This document shows, one piece after another, positions 42,729 through 52,608 of a stretch of DNA of 57,779 bases. Origin of the DNA: Rhodoflexus caldus (lineage in GTDB: Bacteria > Bacteroidota > Bacteroidia > Cytophagales > Thermoflexibacteraceae); contig NZ_JAJPRF010000020.1 in NCBI RefSeq assembly GCF_021206925.1, forward strand, positions 1-57,779. Direction: 5' to 3'. A program made the position numbers and the translations under genes. The notes beneath the pieces were generated by a model. The model did no database searches and was not told the origin of the DNA. It worked only from the letters and a program-made list of their open reading frames with translations. Every line of letters begins with the position of its first letter. Position 1 is the first letter of the stretch.

Positions 42729-44243
42729 TTAGTAGCCGGGGTTTTGAGTAAGTTTTGGATTAGCATCAATCTGAGCCTGTGGAATAGGGAACAGGTTGCG
42801 GATAGGCTGGCTCGCAGGCTTGTTTGTCCACGCATTGGTAAAGCGGTTGTGGCGAATCAAGTCTGTACGGCGAGTAGCCTCCCAACCTAATTCTGTTGAG
42901 CGCTCACGCAGGATTTGTGCACGGAATGTATCGCGGTTAAAACCTGCTACAGAAAGCGGACGAGCAGGGCTGATAGAACGGTTGCGCACCTGATTGACCA
43001 AATTGACAGCCTCAGCAGTCGGGCCGTTCAGTTCGTTCAGGGCTTCAGCCTTCATCAGCAGCACATCGGCATAGCGGAAGATGAAGTAGTCGTTACCTGC
43101 ATCACCGCCATTTTGAGCAGGGTCAATCTGCCATTTCAATACGCGCACACCTGCACCCTCTGAGGCATTTACCAGCGGTACATCGCGAGTGAATATCAGC
43201 GGGTTGCCGCTGCGGTCAAAAGCAGGCTGTCCTGTCAAAAAGTTAATGGCACGACCTTCCTGCAAGATGTTGCGACGCACATCGCCGGGTTCGCTAAATT
43301 GGTCAATAAACTCGGCGATGGTACAGAAACCGTTCCATGGTGATTGCGGCAACTGGTTGTAGTGGAAGTTCCGCATAGTGAACGTCAGACCTAAACCGCC
43401 TTGATTAACGTTGCCAATCAAGAAAATTGCTTCGGGTGAGTTTTCGTTATTGACAGCAAAGTTGTCAAAATAGTTGTTTGCCAAACGGTAAACATTGCTG
43501 TTAATTACCGCATCGCAAGCAGCAATACAATCTTGCCAACGCGCTGTTCCTGTATAAACCTGTGCATTCAGGTACATTCTGGCAAGCAGGGTATTGGCAG
43601 CACCTTTGGTGGCACGTCCCAAATTAGGGCCGGTTGCAGTAGCAGGCAAATCGGCTACAGCCTCACGCAGTTCTTTCTCGATGAAGTTAAACACTTCCTG
43701 ACGACTATTGCGGGCAGGAGGATTGGCAGCATCCACCGTAGGTGTAGTTACAATAGGCACTCCGCCGAAGAAATCCATCAATTGGAAGTAGAAATAGGCA
43801 CGCAGGAATCTTGCTTCTGCATTGAAGGCCTTTTTCAGGTTGTCGTTTACCGAAGAGCGGCTCAGGTTGTCGATAAACACATTGGCACGTGCAACACCTG
43901 TATAAGCATCAATCCATGCTCCGTTGAGCATTGGGTGTGTTTTATCCCATGTGTGCGTGTGCAATTGTGCCCAAACACCACCATCACCCCAGTCGCCACC
44001 ACGCTGAGGTACCATTGTTTCATCAGAGGTATGCTGTGAAATGTTGTAGTAATTCCACAGATATGAACGCAATTGTGCGTATATCGGAATCAGCGTTGAT
44101 AACGCCTGTGCATCGTTCTGGAAAAACGTTTCAGGCACAATTTGGCTGAATACGTCTTCATCCAGATTCGTACAACCGGAGTAAACCAGCGTGGAACATG
44201 CCATCGCTCCGGCCACGAAATACTTTGTTATTTTGCTCTTCAT
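42729..44243 (-). CDS. SusD/RagB-family outer-membrane lipoprotein
   Basis: A 504-residue lipoprotein (lipobox VYSGC, Cys about 24) that forms the surface lid over its SusC channel. Typical helices and segments are QALSTLIPIYAQLRSYLWNYYN, NAEARFLRAYFYFQLMDFFGGVPIVT, NTLLARMYLNAQVYTG, YFIFRYADVLLMKAEALNELNG and the C-terminal RRTDLIRHNRF. The frame starts nine codons earlier, but the ATG at 44243 gives a normal signal peptide. It follows susC in the operon. No glycosidase, sulfatase or regulator gene is next to the pair, so the substrate is unknown. Confidence 0.92.
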   Translation of the reverse strand: MKSKITKYFVAGAMACSTLVYSGCTNLDEDVFSQIVPETFFQNDAQALSTLIPIYAQLRSYLWNYYNISQHTSDETMVPQRGGDWGDGGVWAQLHTHTWDKTHPMLNGAWIDAYTGVARANVFIDNLSRSSVNDNLKKAFNAEARFLRAYFYFQLMDFFGGVPIVTTPTVDAANPPARNSRQEVFNFIEKELREAVADLPATATGPNLGRATKGAANTLLARMYLNAQVYTGTARWQDCIAACDAVINSNVYRLANNYFDNFAVNNENSPEAIFLIGNVNQGGLGLTFTMRNFHYNQLPQSPWNGFCTIAEFIDQFSEPGDVRRNILQEGRAINFLTGQPAFDRSGNPLIFTRDVPLVNASEGAGVRVLKWQIDPAQNGGDAGNDYFIFRYADVLLMKAEALNELNGPTAEAVNLVNQVRNRSISPARPLSVAGFNRDTFRAQILRERSTELGWEATRRTDLIRHNRFTNAWTNKPASQPIRNLFPIPQAQIDANPKLTQNPGY

Positions 44244-44283
44244 TGTCATATGAACAGAGTTTAGTTTCAATTTACAATTTTTT

Positions 44284-44378: not shown

Positions 44379-47333
44379 TTAGAAACCTACATTGAGGCCG
44401 AACATCACGGTGCGTGCACGAGGATAGTTCGCATAGTCATAGCCGGGGAACGCAGCAGCTACTTCTGGATCTAAACCTGTGTATTTGGTAATCAGGAACA
44501 GGTTTTGTCCGGTAGCATATACGCGCAGATTGCTCAACCATTTCACACTGCTGATGTCAAAATTGTAGCCGACAGTAGCATTTTGCAAACGAAGGAATGA
44601 ACCGTCTTCAATCCAACGGCTGGAATACTTAGGTGTTTCTGTCAGGTTCGTACCGTCATTTAAGGCATCACGCAACATGTTGATATTAGTGAACACGTTG
44701 TTTTTCACAGTGTACTCCAATGCAGTGTTGTTAAACACTTCCATTCCTTGTACGCCTTGCAAGAAGAAGCTGAAATCCAGACGCTTATAACGGAAACTGT
44801 TGTTGATGCCGTAAGTGAAGCGTGGATTAGGATTGCCTAAAACCTGACGAGGGCCTAAGATTTGTACGCCGTTTTCAATGCGCACCAATGTAGGGCCGTA
44901 CCATGAGTTGGCAGGCAGCCCCGGCGCAATTACCTGTGTGTTTACACCGGACTGACCGGCACCTGAAGCATTGGCGCGGAAAATAGAGTCTGCGCTACCC
45001 GCAAGGCTCACTACTTTGTTTTGTATGTATGCAAAGTTGGCAGAAACATCCCAACGGAAATCACCTTTATCTACGGCAGTGTAGTTAGCTGAAAACTCGA
45101 TACCCTTGTTTTGTACTTCACCGGCATTACCCAAAATAGTAGGTACTACTGCGGGTTGAGGCACGGCGAACTCCAACAACAGGTCGGTAGTGCGCTTAAC
45201 GAAGTAGTCGATGCTACCGGTCAGGCGGTTATCCAAGAAGCCGTAATCTACACCTATGTTTAACTGAGAAGTTTCTTCCCATTTCAGGTTCGGGTTGGGG
45301 TTCTGTGTCAAAGCCACACCTGTTTGAGGTATGCCACCAATGATGGCGCGCAGTCCCGGGTCGGCGTTGAAGATGGTCAGCGAACGACGATTACCGATTT
45401 CCTGACTACCGGTGATACCATAGCTCACGCGCACTTTCAGGTCGGTTATCGCGTCAATGCCTTTCATGAAGTTCTCTTCCACAATACGCCATGCTACTGA
45501 AGCTGACGGGAAGTTACCCCACTTGTTATTGGCACCGAAGCGGGAAGAACCATCGCGACGGAAAGTAGCAGTAAACAGATACTTGCCGGCGATGTCATAG
45601 TTGGCACGTGCATAGAATGAAATCAGTTTGTTATTTTCTTTGAATGAGAATGGAGGAATACCTGCCAAAACAGTTGAATTACCTGCACCTAAGTTGTTGG
45701 CTCCAAATGCGTCAGTGATGAAGTCGCGGCCGGCAGCACCAAAACCTTCACGGTTGAAAATTTGATAGTCATAACCGGCAATAACATTCAGGTTGTGGTT
45801 GTCCAGCAGATTTTTCTGATAGCTCAGGTAAGACTCGAAGCGTTCAAAACCAAAATCGTTTTGGCGAATCGCTGCTTCACCGCCAAACGGCAAACCGGCA
45901 GGGTTGCTGCGTGGTACATAGACCTTACGGGTAGAAAGGTTGCGGTCTGTACTTACGGCAATGCGGGCTTTCAGTCCTTGAATAATTTCGTAGGTAGCAC
46001 CCAAGTTGGCAAAAATACGGTTGGTAACTACGTTATCGCTCAACTGAGTAGCCAATGCAACCGGGTTACGAATAGACGGAGAAGGATACTCGAAGAAACT
46101 GCCGTCCGGTCTTCTAACGGGGAAAGTAGGGTTCATTTTCATTACGTTGGTAAACAGACCGCCCTCAAAACCACCTGTGGCAGAATAAGGCACCAATTGG
46201 TCATTTACCTGAGAACCCATCAGTTGCAGTTCCAGATTGAGTTTGTCATTAATCGCCTTATGGTTTACGTTGATACGACCGGAAACGCGGGTCATACCGG
46301 AGTTAATCACCATACCCTCTTGGTTGAAATAGTTCACGGAAGCGCGATACTGTGTTTTGGCTGTACCACCGCCAAAAGAAAGGTCATGGTTATGTACCAT
46401 TGCCGTACGCAATACTTCGCGCTGCCAATCGGTATCGGCATTGCCTAAGTCGTTGTTCAGGCGGTTAGATTGCACAAACTGACGATACTCAGCCGCATTG
46501 AGCAAAGGCAAATATTTAGAAGGCGTATTGAAACCTACGTAAGTATCGTAGTTGAGTGTTCCTCTGCCTTCTTTGCCTTTTTTAGTAGTAATGATGATAA
46601 CACCGTTAGCACCGCGTGAACCGTAGATAGCAGCCGCAGAAGCATCTTTCAATACATCTATGGATTCAATATCGTTCGGGTTCAACGAGTTCAGCGGGTT
46701 ACGCGGAGGAGCTGCGCCCAAGTTTGCACCGCCGGGAGTTACCGTTCCGTTATCGATAGGTACACCGTCAATTACGTACAAGGGCAGGTTACTTGCGTTA
46801 ATGGATGTACCCCCACGGATACGCACGTTAGGGTTAGCACCGGGGTCGCCGTTGGCAGAAGTAATTACTACACCCGCTGCACGGCCTTGTAGTAATTGTT
46901 CAGGAGATACAATGGCACCCGGGTTAAAATCCTTAGCCTTTACAGAGGTCATAGAGCCGGTGATATCGCGCTTCTTTTGCTCACCGTAACCAACTACGAC
47001 AACCTCGCTCAGGGCTTTCACATCAACTGCCAGCTTAACGTCTATATTGTCTTTGCCGGCCACATTTACTTCCTGTGAGATAAAGCCCACATAAGAAAAT
47101 ACCAAAACCGGATTGTCTCCGGAAACATTCAGGCTGAAATTACCTTCTACGTCGGTAATTGTACCCGTATTAGTGCCTTTCAGGGTAACGTTTACGCCGG
47201 GTAGCGGGCTACCGTCTTCCTCTGACGTAACCTTACCCTTGACCGTACGGTTCTGCGCATAAAGCATCCCCGCACAAAACATCAGCAAAATTGCCAATGT
47301 CATTTTCAGTAAAGAGTTCACTTTCATGTTCAT
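44379..47333 (-). CDS. SusC/RagA TonB-dependent outer-membrane transporter
   Basis: A 984-residue barrel protein. A signal peptide (about 1-26, ending LYAQ) precedes a carboxypeptidase-regulatory-like domain (VKGKVTSEEDGSPLPGVNVTL, to about 110) and a plug domain (about 118-240) with VVVGYGEQKKRDITGS and the SusC signature DVLKDASAAAIYGSRGANGVI. A large beta-barrel then ends in VMFGLNVGF, with the usual terminal phenylalanine. With SusD it imports a ligand using TonB energy. A second ATG two codons in is an alternative start. A long leader with a cysteine-rich mini-ORF and a terminator-like hairpin precedes it. Confidence 0.94.
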   Translation of the reverse strand: MNMKVNSLLKMTLAILLMFCAGMLYAQNRTVKGKVTSEEDGSPLPGVNVTLKGTNTGTITDVEGNFSLNVSGDNPVLVFSYVGFISQEVNVAGKDNIDVKLAVDVKALSEVVVVGYGEQKKRDITGSMTSVKAKDFNPGAIVSPEQLLQGRAAGVVITSANGDPGANPNVRIRGGTSINASNLPLYVIDGVPIDNGTVTPGGANLGAAPPRNPLNSLNPNDIESIDVLKDASAAAIYGSRGANGVIIITTKKGKEGRGTLNYDTYVGFNTPSKYLPLLNAAEYRQFVQSNRLNNDLGNADTDWQREVLRTAMVHNHDLSFGGGTAKTQYRASVNYFNQEGMVINSGMTRVSGRINVNHKAINDKLNLELQLMGSQVNDQLVPYSATGGFEGGLFTNVMKMNPTFPVRRPDGSFFEYPSPSIRNPVALATQLSDNVVTNRIFANLGATYEIIQGLKARIAVSTDRNLSTRKVYVPRSNPAGLPFGGEAAIRQNDFGFERFESYLSYQKNLLDNHNLNVIAGYDYQIFNREGFGAAGRDFITDAFGANNLGAGNSTVLAGIPPFSFKENNKLISFYARANYDIAGKYLFTATFRRDGSSRFGANNKWGNFPSASVAWRIVEENFMKGIDAITDLKVRVSYGITGSQEIGNRRSLTIFNADPGLRAIIGGIPQTGVALTQNPNPNLKWEETSQLNIGVDYGFLDNRLTGSIDYFVKRTTDLLLEFAVPQPAVVPTILGNAGEVQNKGIEFSANYTAVDKGDFRWDVSANFAYIQNKVVSLAGSADSIFRANASGAGQSGVNTQVIAPGLPANSWYGPTLVRIENGVQILGPRQVLGNPNPRFTYGINNSFRYKRLDFSFFLQGVQGMEVFNNTALEYTVKNNVFTNINMLRDALNDGTNLTETPKYSSRWIEDGSFLRLQNATVGYNFDISSVKWLSNLRVYATGQNLFLITKYTGLDPEVAAAFPGYDYANYPRARTVMFGLNVGF

Positions 47334-47461
47334 GTGAATTGCTGTTTGTAATTAGATAGAAATTTATCAACCTTTTGCCTGCAAGGCAGCTACAGAACTG
47401 CAACATTGCAAGCATAACGGATGCAATAACTTGTACAATTAAAATAATTTGGGAGACAAAA

Positions 47462-47502
47462 AACTCCTCTTAAAATCAAAAAACGATGACTTTAAAGGAG
47501 TT
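47462..47502 (-). terminator. Terminator-like hairpin in the susC leader (candidate attenuator)
   Basis: On the minus strand AACTCCTTTAAAGTCA (47502-47487) pairs with TGATTTTAAGAGGAGTT (47478-47462): 15 bp with one bulge and one mismatch, and an eight-base loop. Six T residues follow (47463-47458). The 5' arm begins inside the stop codon of the 17-codon leader ORF. It lies about 125 bases before the susC start, so it would stop transcription early unless prevented. Confidence 0.6.
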
Positions 47503-47554
47503 AGCAGGCGTGGCAGTAGAATGAGCAGTAACAGTGGCTGGTTTCCATTTTCAT
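47501..47554 (-). CDS. Cysteine-rich leader peptide upstream of susC
   Basis: A 17-codon ORF encoding MKMETSHCYCSFYCHAC, with four cysteine codons (one TGT, three TGC), three of them in the last eight positions before the TAA and one directly before it. It begins about 25 bases after the predicted start site of a consensus promoter. The stop overlaps the 5' arm of a terminator-like hairpin. It has no signal peptide or known family. The peptide itself is probably of no importance; ribosome progress on the Cys codons is the likely signal. A metal-binding peptide is an alternative. Confidence 0.55.
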   Translation of the reverse strand: MKMETSHCYCSFYCHAC

Positions 47555-47584
47555 AATAGCGTTAGTTTAAATTACAGGTGATGG

Positions 47585-47613
47585 CAAATATAACAGAAAA
47601 AGAATATGTCAAA
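47585..47613 (-). promoter_or_regulatory. Consensus promoter of the susC-susD operon
   Basis: On the minus strand TTTG (47613-47610), a 17-base spacer and TATATTTG (47592-47585) match both Bacteroidota promoter elements. The predicted start is near 47579, which gives a leader of about 245 bases before susC. Confidence 0.65.
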
Positions 47614-47631
47614 CAAGTATCAGGTTTTTTT

Positions 47632-47639
47632 TATCTTTG
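47632..47639 (+). promoter_or_regulatory. clpS promoter, -7 element TATCTTTG
   Basis: TATCTTTG is an exact TAnnTTTG match 27 bases before the clpS ATG. It lies inside the upward extension of the clpS frame (open from 47606), which supports the downstream start. It is back to back with the susC promoter, separated by less than 20 bases. Confidence 0.6.
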
Positions 47640-47665
47640 TCAGTGGAAAGCTAAATTCATTACAA

Positions 47666-47953
47666 ATGCAACCTTGGGAAGATAATTCGGTTGAAATCCT
47701 TGAAATTGAAGTGCCGAACGAGAAGTTGGTGGATGCTCATGACCTTGTTGTTTTCAATGATGATGTAAACACGTTCGAGTTTGTGATTCAAACCCTGATA
47801 GATGTTTGCAAGCATACGCCGGAACAAGCCGAGCAATGCACACTCATCATTCATTACAAGGGGAAATGCAGCGTGAAAAAAGGCAGTTTTGACGAGTTGC
47901 GACCCATGCGCGATGCCATTACGGACAGAGGTATAGGTGCTGCCATTGTGTAA
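47666..47953 (+). CDS. clpS: ATP-dependent Clp protease adaptor ClpS
   Basis: A 95-residue adaptor that delivers N-end-rule substrates to the ClpAP or ClpCP protease. The conserved core is VVFNDDVNTFEFVIQTLIDVCKHTPEQAEQCTLIIHYKGKCSVKKG (about 28-74), with the DD-N-TFE ligand-binding motif. The first 25 residues are the flexible arm. The ATG at 47666 is chosen because the upstream part of the frame overlaps the promoter. recR starts 12 bases downstream. Confidence 0.93.
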   Translation: MQPWEDNSVEILEIEVPNEKLVDAHDLVVFNDDVNTFEFVIQTLIDVCKHTPEQAEQCTLIIHYKGKCSVKKGSFDELRPMRDAITDRGIGAAIV

Positions 47954-49260: not shown

Positions 49261-50799
49261 TTAGCCTGCCCAGTTTTCGCGGTCTAAACTGCGATACTGA
49301 ATAGCTTCGGCCAAGTGCTCTATTTTAATTTCCTGACTACCGGCCAAGTCAGCAATGGTGCGCGATACCTTTAAAATGCGGTCATAGGCGCGCGCAGAAA
49401 GCCCGAGTCGTTCCATTGCTGTTTTGAGTAATGTTTTACCGGGATTACTGATGCTGCATATTTCTTTGACCATCTGCGAAGGCATCATTGCATTGGAATA
49501 AATGCCTGCATATTCTTTAAATCGTTCGGTTTGTATGGCCCTTGCTTTCACTACCCTGCTGCGAATTTGTTCGCTGCTTTCAGCGGGACGCGTGCTGGTC
49601 ATCTGGTCAAAGGATACAGGCGTTACTTCCACATGCAAGTCTATGCGGTCTAACAGTGGGCCGCTGACCTTGTTCAGGTAGCGCTGCACGACCCCGGGGC
49701 CGCATACGCAATCTTTTTCAGGGTGGTTGTAGTAACCACACGGACAAGGGTTCATGCTGGCAACCAACATAAAGTTTGCGGGAAAATCAACCGTAACTTT
49801 GGCGCGCGAAATAGTTACCCGACGCTCTTCCAAAGGCTGTCGCATTACTTCCAGTACCGTTCGCTTGAACTCGGGTAGTTCGTCCAAGAAAAGTACGCCA
49901 TTATGAGCCAGTGAAATTTCCCCCGGTTGCGGAATACCGCCACCGCCTACCAGCGCCACATCGCTGATGGTGTGATGAGGTGCGCGAAACGGCCGCTGAG
50001 CTATCAAGCCGGCTTGCGCCCCTAACTTGCCTGCTACCGAATGAATTTTTGTTGTTTCTAAGGCTTCTTGCAGGCTCATCATGGGCAAAATAGAGGGTAG
50101 CCGTTTGGCAAGCATGGTTTTGCCTGCACCCGGAGGGCCAATCATGATAACATTATGGCCACCTGCCGCGGCTATTTCCAGTGCCCGCTTAATATTTTCC
50201 TGCCCCTGCACGTGCGAAAAATCTGCCGTATAGTGGCTTTGCTCGTGAAAGAACAACTCTCTTGTATCTTTCCGCAAAGGCTCAATTCTTTTGTCGCCGT
50301 TGATGTGCTCAATGGCATCCAGCAAGGTTTCTACGCCAATCACATCAATATTATTGACGATGGCTGCCTCATGCGCATTTTCTTTGGGGATGATAAGCGT
50401 TTTATAGCCCTTTTTGCGCGCCTCAATGGCAATGGGCAAAACCCCTTTAATGGGGCGCAAAAGACCATCGAGCGACAGTTCGCCCATAATCAGGTAACTA
50501 TCCAAATCATCTGCCCTTAGTTGCTCGGAAGCGCGAAGAATCCCGATGGCAAGTGTCAAATCGTATGCGGAACCTTCTTTGCGGAGGTCGGCAGGTGCCA
50601 TATTGATGACGACCCGCTGGCGCGGCATCTTATAGCCGAAAAATTTCAGTGCAGACTCTACTCGTTGCGCACTTTCTTTAACGGCACTGTCGGGTAAACC
50701 TACCATGACAAAGCCTGTACCTTGCATGATAGTTACCTCAACAGTAATGATGGATGCATCAACGCCGAAAACAGCGCTGCCGAAAGTTTTAGCAACCAT
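49261..50799 (-). CDS. comM: YifB/ComM-like Mg chelatase-type AAA ATPase
   Basis: A 512-residue AAA+ protein of the YifB family. The N-terminal region GLPDSAVKESAQRVESALKFFGYKMPRQRVVINMAPADLRKEGSAYDL is the ChlI-like domain with the Lon-type fold. The Walker A motif GPPGAGKTMLAKRLP is at about 218-232, Walker B in LFLDELPEF. A cysteine cluster CPCGYYNHPEKDCVCG probably binds metal. ComM-type proteins promote branch migration during natural transformation. It lies 12 bases after the solute-binding protein gene. Confidence 0.93.
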   Translation of the reverse strand: MVAKTFGSAVFGVDASIITVEVTIMQGTGFVMVGLPDSAVKESAQRVESALKFFGYKMPRQRVVINMAPADLRKEGSAYDLTLAIGILRASEQLRADDLDSYLIMGELSLDGLLRPIKGVLPIAIEARKKGYKTLIIPKENAHEAAIVNNIDVIGVETLLDAIEHINGDKRIEPLRKDTRELFFHEQSHYTADFSHVQGQENIKRALEIAAAGGHNVIMIGPPGAGKTMLAKRLPSILPMMSLQEALETTKIHSVAGKLGAQAGLIAQRPFRAPHHTISDVALVGGGGIPQPGEISLAHNGVLFLDELPEFKRTVLEVMRQPLEERRVTISRAKVTVDFPANFMLVASMNPCPCGYYNHPEKDCVCGPGVVQRYLNKVSGPLLDRIDLHVEVTPVSFDQMTSTRPAESSEQIRSRVVKARAIQTERFKEYAGIYSNAMMPSQMVKEICSISNPGKTLLKTAMERLGLSARAYDRILKVSRTIADLAGSQEIKIEHLAEAIQYRSLDRENWAG

Positions 50800-50811: not shown

Positions 50812-52608
50812 TTATTTTGCTTCTTTGTTTTGAGTGTTGGTCGCTTTGGGTTTCAGATACACCTCGCTGAAATCGCGATATTGCATCGGGTTATTGGGCA
50901 GGTTTTCCACATGCTGCTGCAACAGGCGATAGCATTCGTCATACCACAGTACGATAATCGGAGCATCTTGCATCATGATGGACTCTGCCGCCTGAAAATA
51001 TTTTGTTTGCTCTTCTATATTGGGGGCAGCAAGTGCTTTTTCGTAGTTTTCGTTAAACTTCGGATTGTAGTAGCGCGGGATATTCGGATAAGTATTTTCT
51101 CCTGCTTTGAAAGTGGATTGCTTGCTGTAAAACATCCACAGGAAGTTTTCAGGGCTTGGGAAGTCCGCCACCCATGAAAGGCGAATCATGGCGTAATTGC
51201 CCGATAAGCACTTGTCGGTAATATCGGAGTGCGTAACTACGTTCAGGTCAATGTCTATATTAAGCACTTCTTTGAGTTGGCGCTGCACTTCGGTTGCAAC
51301 CAGCGTATGGCGCTCGCCCTCGGGGTTCAGGTCAAGCGTAATTTTGGGGAAGTTTCTACCCATCGGATAACCGGCCTTGGCGATATAGTAAAGGGCAGAA
51401 TCTTTGTTGAAGTCGTAACCTTTGATTTTGTGGATGTCATACCAGCGGAACGATGGAGGCGTAAGGCCGTACAAACCTGCTTCATAGCCTTCTCCGTTCA
51501 ATACTCTGTCCAAAATTTCTTTGCGGTCAATGGCAAACGAGAAGGCTTTGCGCACGTTCACGTTTTTAAATACCGGATGGATATTGAGTAATGAGTAAAA
51601 TTGGGTCTGGGTTTCCGGTTCTCTTTGCAGCGTGTACTTGCTGATGCCGCCATCGGGGTCTGATTCGGCTTCTTCCAAAATTTCAATGATGTAATCGGTA
51701 GGAAGGCGATACATCATGTCCAGATTGCCTTTCTTAAACTCAAAAAATTCCGTGCGTTTTTCCCGTATAAACTGTATGTACACCCCGTCCAATAATGGCA
51801 ATTGATTGCCGAAACGGTCTTTTCTGTGATAGTTCGGATTGCGTTTGAGGGTGATAGAGTTATTGTCATCAATATTTTTCAGTATGAAAGGCCCCGTACC
51901 GACTGCTTTGAACTTCATCTCGTTGCCATATTTTTCGTAGGCCTCGCGCGGGAAAATGAAACCGCCGCTGCGCGCCAGATTGGACAATAACAAAGAGTAT
52001 GGCCTCTCTAAAAACAACTGAATTGTGTATTTACCAAGAACTTTGATGCCTTCTACTTCAAAGTCGGGCTTTTTCCCTCCGGCAGAGGCATTGTAGTACT
52101 CTTTTGCCCCTTTGATGATGCCGTCAAATAAGTGGAACGACTGGTTGTCGGGACTTTGTGTGCACAATTGCGTGAAGCAGTATTTCACATCTTCGGCAGT
52201 AAGCTCGCGCCCTTTGCCGCCTTCAAAAGCAGGGTCATCGTGAAAAAATACGCCCTTTTTCAGTTGGAAGGTATATATGGTTTGGGTTGGGTCTATTTCA
52301 AAGGTGTCTGCCAATGATTTTACGACCTCCATGTTGGTTTGGTCAAACTTGAAAAGCCCTTCATAGATATGATTAGCTACGCGATAAGAATATACATCAA
52401 CAATAGCCGGCGGATACAATGTTTTGATATACTCGGTTTCATTGATACGCAAAACGCCGCCATAGAATCGGCCGCCCTTGGCTTCACGAGGGCCGGAAGG
52501 TTCTTCCTGCCGCTGTGAAGGGGAGCAGCCGTATAAAGCTATGAATGCTGATACATAAAGAACAAACCTCAACAGGTATGATGCTTTATCCGAGAGCTTA
52601 TTTCGCAT
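50812..52608 (-). CDS. Peptide/solute-binding lipoprotein (SBP_bac_5)
   Basis: A 598-residue lipoprotein (lipobox ALYGC, Cys about 29) of the family 5 extracellular solute-binding proteins, which typically bind peptides, nickel or sugars for an ABC transporter. Signature parts are VANHIYEGLFKFDQTNMEVVKSLAD, VFFHDDPAFEGGKGRELTAEDVKYCF and the end YAMIRLSWVADFPSPENFLWMF. The ABC permease and ATPase genes are not adjacent. The ATG at 52608 is chosen over an in-frame start 10 codons upstream. It heads the unit with the comM-like gene. Confidence 0.9.
   Translation of the reverse strand: MRNKLSDKASYLLRFVLYVSAFIALYGCSPSQRQEEPSGPREAKGGRFYGGVLRINETEYIKTLYPPAIVDVYSYRVANHIYEGLFKFDQTNMEVVKSLADTFEIDPTQTIYTFQLKKGVFFHDDPAFEGGKGRELTAEDVKYCFTQLCTQSPDNQSFHLFDGIIKGAKEYYNASAGGKKPDFEVEGIKVLGKYTIQLFLERPYSLLLSNLARSGGFIFPREAYEKYGNEMKFKAVGTGPFILKNIDDNNSITLKRNPNYHRKDRFGNQLPLLDGVYIQFIREKRTEFFEFKKGNLDMMYRLPTDYIIEILEEAESDPDGGISKYTLQREPETQTQFYSLLNIHPVFKNVNVRKAFSFAIDRKEILDRVLNGEGYEAGLYGLTPPSFRWYDIHKIKGYDFNKDSALYYIAKAGYPMGRNFPKITLDLNPEGERHTLVATEVQRQLKEVLNIDIDLNVVTHSDITDKCLSGNYAMIRLSWVADFPSPENFLWMFYSKQSTFKAGENTYPNIPRYYNPKFNENYEKALAAPNIEEQTKYFQAAESIMMQDAPIIVLWYDECYRLLQQHVENLPNNPMQYRDFSEVYLKPKATNTQNKEAK

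Follow-up and report, generated by a model that had tools for sequence, protein, structure and literature searches.

A terminator-like hairpin behind a Cys-rich leader ORF: a possible lineage-specific attenuator of a susCD operon in Rhodoflexus caldus

Can the expression of a SusCD importer be governed by a ribosome that translates a short leader ORF? The question is raised by a 57,779-nt stretch of the Rhodoflexus caldus genome (the window), which carries on its minus strand, from 5' to 3', a promoter, a leader of 30 nt, a 17-codon ORF, a hairpin, a U-tract, susC, and susD (Table 1). SusCD importers are controlled mostly by sigma/anti-sigma and hybrid two-component systems. Antisense RNAs are described as a further means of their control in an excerpt of PMC7366714. 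The original prediction for this locus, that no SusC–SusD attenuator of such form had been described, agrees with the open-licence literature: among the matches listed, none concerns a leader-peptide attenuator of SusC.

Table 1. Positions of the susCD leader elements and adjacent genes in the window
Feature	Position	Strand	Basis or remark
susD (SusD/RagB lipoprotein)	42729..44270	-	PF07980, PF14322
susC (SusC/RagA TonB-linked outer-membrane protein)	44379..47333, ATG at 47333	-	TIGR04056, 835 bits
U-tract TTTTGTCTCCC after the stem	47451..47461	-	sequence
Intrinsic-terminator-like hairpin, 16 bp, 8-nt loop, one bulge	47462..47502	-	folding, -15.9 kcal/mol
Leader ORF MKMETSHCYCSFYCHAC, 17 codons + TAA	47501..47554	-	sequence; leader ORFs also in three congeners
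Promoter TTTG-N17-TATATTTG, Bacteroidota-type	47585..47613	-	motif match; kept in 4/4 orthologous loci
clpS, divergent neighbour	47666..47953	+	start re-assigned here from 47606

The promoter is present in full on the minus strand at 47613-47585, as had been predicted, and is presumably used in the cell. Its exact motif, TTTG-N17-TATATTTG, is matched once in the window; chance alone would give 0.51 matches on the two strands together, and at least one is present in 43 of 100 shuffles. The leader ORF was likewise found at 47554-47501 with a Cys codon as its last codon, and its TAA shares the final two bases with the beginning of the hairpin's 5' arm, both in line with the original prediction. 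The four Cys residues (Cys8, Cys10, Cys14, and Cys17) are spaced CxCxxxCxxC. Among random ATG ORFs of 10–30 codons with leader composition, 10 of 1479 reach a Cys share this high, as do 3 of the 624 window ORFs of that length, the leader ORF included. The ORF thereby features what is characteristic of trp/his-type attenuators, a short frame rich in the codon of one amino acid. It starts in the A-rich context ATGAAAATG without a Shine–Dalgarno sequence and is probably translated in the cell.

The hairpin stands ahead of susC, at the predicted distance of about 125 bases. It has 16 base pairs and a bulge of 1 nt instead of the 15 pairs originally counted, and the run of six T ascribed to it is obtained only by including the last two T of the stem—four T follow the stem itself. 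A strict hairpin-plus-T filter returns three sites on both strands of the window: the leader hairpin, 2555-2588, and 51004-51035. In 12 Markov controls, the same filter averages 0.42 sites per strand, and it finds none in 200 kb of random sequence that has the leader composition; a hairpin of this kind is seldom produced by chance. No excess is seen with a permissive filter, which gives 22 sites on two strands and, in three controls, 17, 13, and 13 per strand. The leader hairpin is absent from the output of a stock terminator scan. Folding of the whole 136-nt leader segment gives no more structure than shuffles (z -0.31). By sequence, the hairpin qualifies as an intrinsic terminator placed after the leader ORF and ahead of the gene in the window species and its sister only, and it may act as such in the cell. 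Within the window, no Rfam cis-regulatory RNA is matched at gathering score. The leader was also considered as a repeated element, an idea that was rejected: a second copy of the whole leader was sought in the genome and none was found, and for the hairpin DNA the best other match in the genome (E 0.23) is not a full copy.

A terminator at this position might belong to a gene further upstream. No annotated co-directional gene was found that it could serve; the nearest minus-strand gene assigned upstream of the susC leader is a YifB homologue with its end at 49261, past clpS and recR, the latter following clpS on the plus strand. The only open frame available is antisense to clpS, measures 105 codons from stop to stop, and ends 326 nt before susC. 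It is taken for chance because the nearest such frame in the sister species ends elsewhere (at -582). Transcription through this frame into the leader may nevertheless occur, and this is counted against an attenuator. The mechanical ORF of clpS spans 47606-47953 (+), with the ATG at 47666 as the likelier start. The clpS promoter region and the conserved promoter region of susC may share sequence, so that conservation there may serve both genes.

The position at which a ribosome would interfere with the hairpin was modeled by masking a footprint along the ORF, with its 3' edge placed 15 nt downstream of the first nucleotide in the P-site codon. The footprint length is an E. coli-type value, which may not be that of the host. 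When the A site holds Cys8, Cys10, or Cys14, the hairpin retains 14.3 pairs and -15.9 kcal/mol. Occlusion begins with codon 15 in the A site (-11.7 kcal/mol), and most of the hairpin is lost only with codon 16 (-7.3 kcal/mol), Cys17 (-4.3 kcal/mol), or the stop, the last of these bringing the most complete loss (0.9 pairs, -2.3 kcal/mol). Under the assumed footprint, a ribosome at the leader end hence covers the 5' arm of the terminator, which is the geometry of direct occlusion. Judged by the masking energies, a ribosome is productively placed at the end of the ORF alone. The original proposal that a stalled or slow ribosome would block the terminator stands for codons 16-17 and the stop and fails for Cys8, Cys10, and Cys14. 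Antiterminator pairing, which belongs to the trp/his type, does not appear in the minimum-energy folds of a non-exhaustive structure search.

These features are compatible with a lineage-specific, translation-controlled attenuator in the susCD leader, a tentative reading that we regard as quite possible though short of likely, and as the most probable of those considered here. In this attenuator, transcription would start below the promoter at 47613-47585, and a ribosome would initiate at ATGAAAATG independently of a Shine–Dalgarno sequence. A ribosome located on the last codons or the stop while the hairpin is being made would cover the 5' arm and allow for read-through into susCD. With the ribosome absent, held upstream (Cys8, Cys10, and Cys14 included), or already released, the hairpin would form and transcription would terminate. 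The switch would thus read the extent and promptness of short-ORF translation, with dwell at Cys17 or the stop as its productive state; in the simplest model, the leader reads translation itself. Prompt ribosome release would mostly result in termination, so that the ON state would need a slow step, a point that counts against this reading. Occlusion of this kind may take place in the cell insofar as the assumed footprint applies.

Besides this genome, the search for susC orthologues brought up three more from the same genus, with identities of 98, 92, and 85%. A further search of contigs gave 11 loci, of which the three at 85–98% are apparently the same congeners; the leader comparison excludes the remaining eight at 40–42%. 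In the next relatives (67 and 56%), no short ORF with at least two Cys was found within 600 nt. Within the genus, all differences in the promoter are confined to its spacer. The sister leader peptide, MKMKTSYCYCSFYCQVC, keeps all four Cys, and the third species features MKMKFDYCYCFARYFSCEVGILKLCNIGG (MKMKFDYCYC...). The peptide of the fourth species, MKMKYFYERLSHVSLIPPAPPC, has a single, terminal Cys and lacks the Cys cluster. This last leader ends in PPAPPC; its proline pairs could slow ribosomes, and the sensor, if there is any, may have changed.

An alignment of the orthologous leaders, proposed along with the original prediction as a check, came out divided across the four genomes. On the positive side, the promoter and the leader start ATGAAAATGRA are conserved in four of four and the CYC motif in three of four. 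On the negative side, only two of four combine the full set of four Cys with a terminator immediately after the stop. Regulatory codons are hence not conserved among orthologues in the manner of trp/his-type leaders. Retention of promoter and leader start is counted for the attenuator, as it persists despite a susC fourfold-site divergence of 58 and 67% in the two more distant species (16.8%, 81/482, in the sister). The position of the hairpin between promoter and gene, and its stability in the sister, are counted likewise. Counted against is that no terminator was found in the third and fourth species, merely weaker hairpins without a good T-tract.

Comparison of the window with the sister gives no change at 29 promoter sites, one at 30 sites of the leader before the ORF, seven at 54 ORF sites, and three at 42 sites in the rest of the hairpin; the stretch to susC has 12 changes and three gaps in 125 columns. 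Set against 16.8% at fourfold sites, the change in the ORF body appears close to neutral, which is also counted against the attenuator. Random mutants with seven changes retain the ORF plus all four Cys with a probability of 0.086, so that Cys retention between the sisters is not strong evidence of selection. The sister hairpin carries four substitutions—three of them loop changes, the fourth turning an A-U pair into G-U—and 4.9% of random four-change hairpin mutants are equally stable. Cys retention and hairpin stability may therefore be read as leanings toward selection, not as proofs. The stop codon is kept in the sister, with TAA replaced by TGA, followed by C. TGA-C is a slow termination context, and if it is slow here, the ribosome of the sister would dwell longer over the hairpin.

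A wider family of such peptides was sought with the 17-residue sister peptide in 390 genomes of the order, 63 of which gave a match at E <= 5, and was dismissed. Thirty loci (L058-L087) were inspected, two of them being the window's own and the sister's; among the other 28, to which this count is restricted, no homologous leader was found. An in-frame ATG is absent from 22 and present in 5 of 27 loci checked (L079 left out). L063 and L077, from one genus, begin with MKIIGC and contain three Cys, yet they run antisense to an open frame of 562 codons; L078 contains a single Cys; and in L074 and L084 the ATG sits 14–19 codons ahead of the match; all five were taken for chance.

Other receptor leaders were surveyed for the same arrangement. 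A promoter combined with a uORF of 5–50 codons occurs only at this locus among 26 SusC/TonB starts scanned in this genome, which represent 26 of about 32 receptor genes behind 44 matches, with six left out. A strong hairpin with a T-tract lies within 400 nt of 9 of 51 susC/TonB-receptor starts in this and related genomes, a count that leaves out L004, L007, L018, L023, L032, and L037, for which the match or contig does not give the gene start. The hairpins of L006, L020, L028, and L121 stand behind a co-directional open frame, that of L115 does so doubtfully (frame ending near -402), and L026, the ninth hairpin locus, was placed in neither group. Promoter and uORF together were found only at this locus and that of the sister among six of the nine (L020, L026, and L028 left out). 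At another of the nine hairpin loci, L125 (G000 contig 16), an apparent tRNA gene and terminator are located directly upstream of a TonB-dependent receptor gene.

The original prediction named cysteine as the signal: a shortage of charged tRNA-Cys would stall the ribosome at the Cys codons, block the terminator, and turn on susCD as a sulfur-scavenging importer. This appears very improbable. It draws support from a Cys content that few random ORFs equal and that the sister retains in full, from the predicted loss of the hairpin with Cys17 in the A site, and from the sulfur metabolism of the genus. PAPS/APS reductase (PF01507) and sulfite reductase (PF01077) have no match in any of the four genus genomes (G000-G003), whereas the two families are matched in 14 and 11 of 14 control genomes, respectively; hence, the genus probably requires reduced sulfur. 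Such dependence fits the cysteine idea in general, is equally true of the species without the Cys cluster, and does not tie this importer to sulfur. The direction of the switch, by contrast, conflicts with the geometry. A severe shortage should hit Cys8 first, where a stalled ribosome leaves the hairpin at full stability, so that the terminator forms—the opposite sign to the one proposed. The minimum-energy folds show no antiterminator pairing, the Cys cluster is missing from one of four species, and the terminator was not found in two. A sulfur-scavenging role finds no backing either: nothing in susC or susD was found to indicate sulfur, and the best-scoring solved relatives are named by family only ('SusC homolog', 'SusD superfamily protein'), the closest solved SusC relative presumably belonging to a glycan system. 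A regulon of Cys leaders was considered and rejected. The best cysteine-synthase-like match in this genome is cystathionine beta-synthase (TIGR01137, 532 bits, above cut-off), and its loci in the genus (L099-L102, 4/4) lack a uORF with at least three Cys within 350 nt. A 5-Cys ORF before ilvA (L104, L105) was dropped, as a TATATTTG box lies inside the ORF, nearer the gene; the ilvA leader in L106 features a 2-Cys ORF only. A mild tRNA-Cys shortage could prolong the pause at Cys17 and raise read-through, the sign not being given by the sequence. A recently evolved Cys-codon leader, in a lineage without PAPS/APS or sulfite reductase matches, that is ON under mild and OFF under severe cysteine limitation is thus conceivable and just as improbable; if true, it would constitute a two-sided cysteine response unlike the attenuators known to us.

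The main rival to the attenuator is a passive partial terminator, in which the hairpin would lower susC expression by a fixed amount and the Cys-rich frame would be incidental. It is unlikely on balance, yet the near-neutral change of the uORF body, the missing hairpin in two of four species, the small number of orthologues (just four), and the unremarkable folding of the whole segment all suit it. It leaves unaccounted for the promoter and ATGAAAATGRA retained in all four species and a CYC core retained in three, including a species with 58% divergence at fourfold sites. A further rival is arrest at the stop codon that depends on the peptide, of which TnaC is an example: a Cys-rich nascent peptide together with a ligand would slow release at Cys17-stop, open the hairpin, and switch susC on. 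The stop is the position at which the hairpin is disabled most completely, and a stop codon is retained in the sister; the C-terminal residues differ between the sisters, however (HAC vs QVC), and neither a ligand nor an arrest motif is known to us. Such arrest is improbable. Least probable of all is that the unit exists to make a short leader RNA or a small peptide, Cys-rich and metal-binding, while another promoter serves susC. The Cys spacing and the completeness of the promoter–ORF–terminator unit would agree with it, but the pattern T[TG]TG-N15-21-TAnnTTTG is not matched between hairpin and susC, and the peptide search brought up no homologous leader among the 28 loci inspected outside the sisters.

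The translation-controlled attenuator has a mechanistic parallel in ampC and pyrBI of E. coli, which are direct-occlusion attenuators: the ribosome on the leader ORF covers or hinders the terminator. Here, this occlusion is predicted from geometry, and signal and target differ. With trp/his-type attenuators, the leader shares a short ORF that repeats the codons of one amino acid followed by an intrinsic terminator; it differs from them in that no antiterminator was found, the distance from the first Cys codons to the hairpin is too great, and susCD is not a biosynthetic operon. Leader-peptide attenuators ahead of amino-acid operons are reported for Flavobacterium psychrophilum in an excerpt of PMC9723704. 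The polycysteine sORF attenuators of mycobacteria (Canestrari et al. 2020, as cited in PMC9094748) are termed phylogenetically conserved in the excerpts of PMC9094748 and leaderless in the title of the cited paper. They resemble the present case in a short Cys-rich ORF upstream of a gene as the proposed reporter of cysteine supply. Here, only two of four congeners have the full Cys set, the stop runs directly into a terminator-like hairpin, and control would fall on a SusCD importer. The DonS-like cis-antisense RNAs of Bacteroides PULs, divergently encoded according to the excerpt of PMC7366714, share RNA-level control at the susC 5' end, which is proposed here for an element on the sense strand.

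The complete element is confined to two sister species, which lowers its weight and at the same time makes it a neat test case for the origin of leaders. If the reading is true, such leaders can be acquired or lost inside one genus, and the status of translation, acting through a ribosome-controlled terminator ahead of susC, would join the modes of SusCD control.
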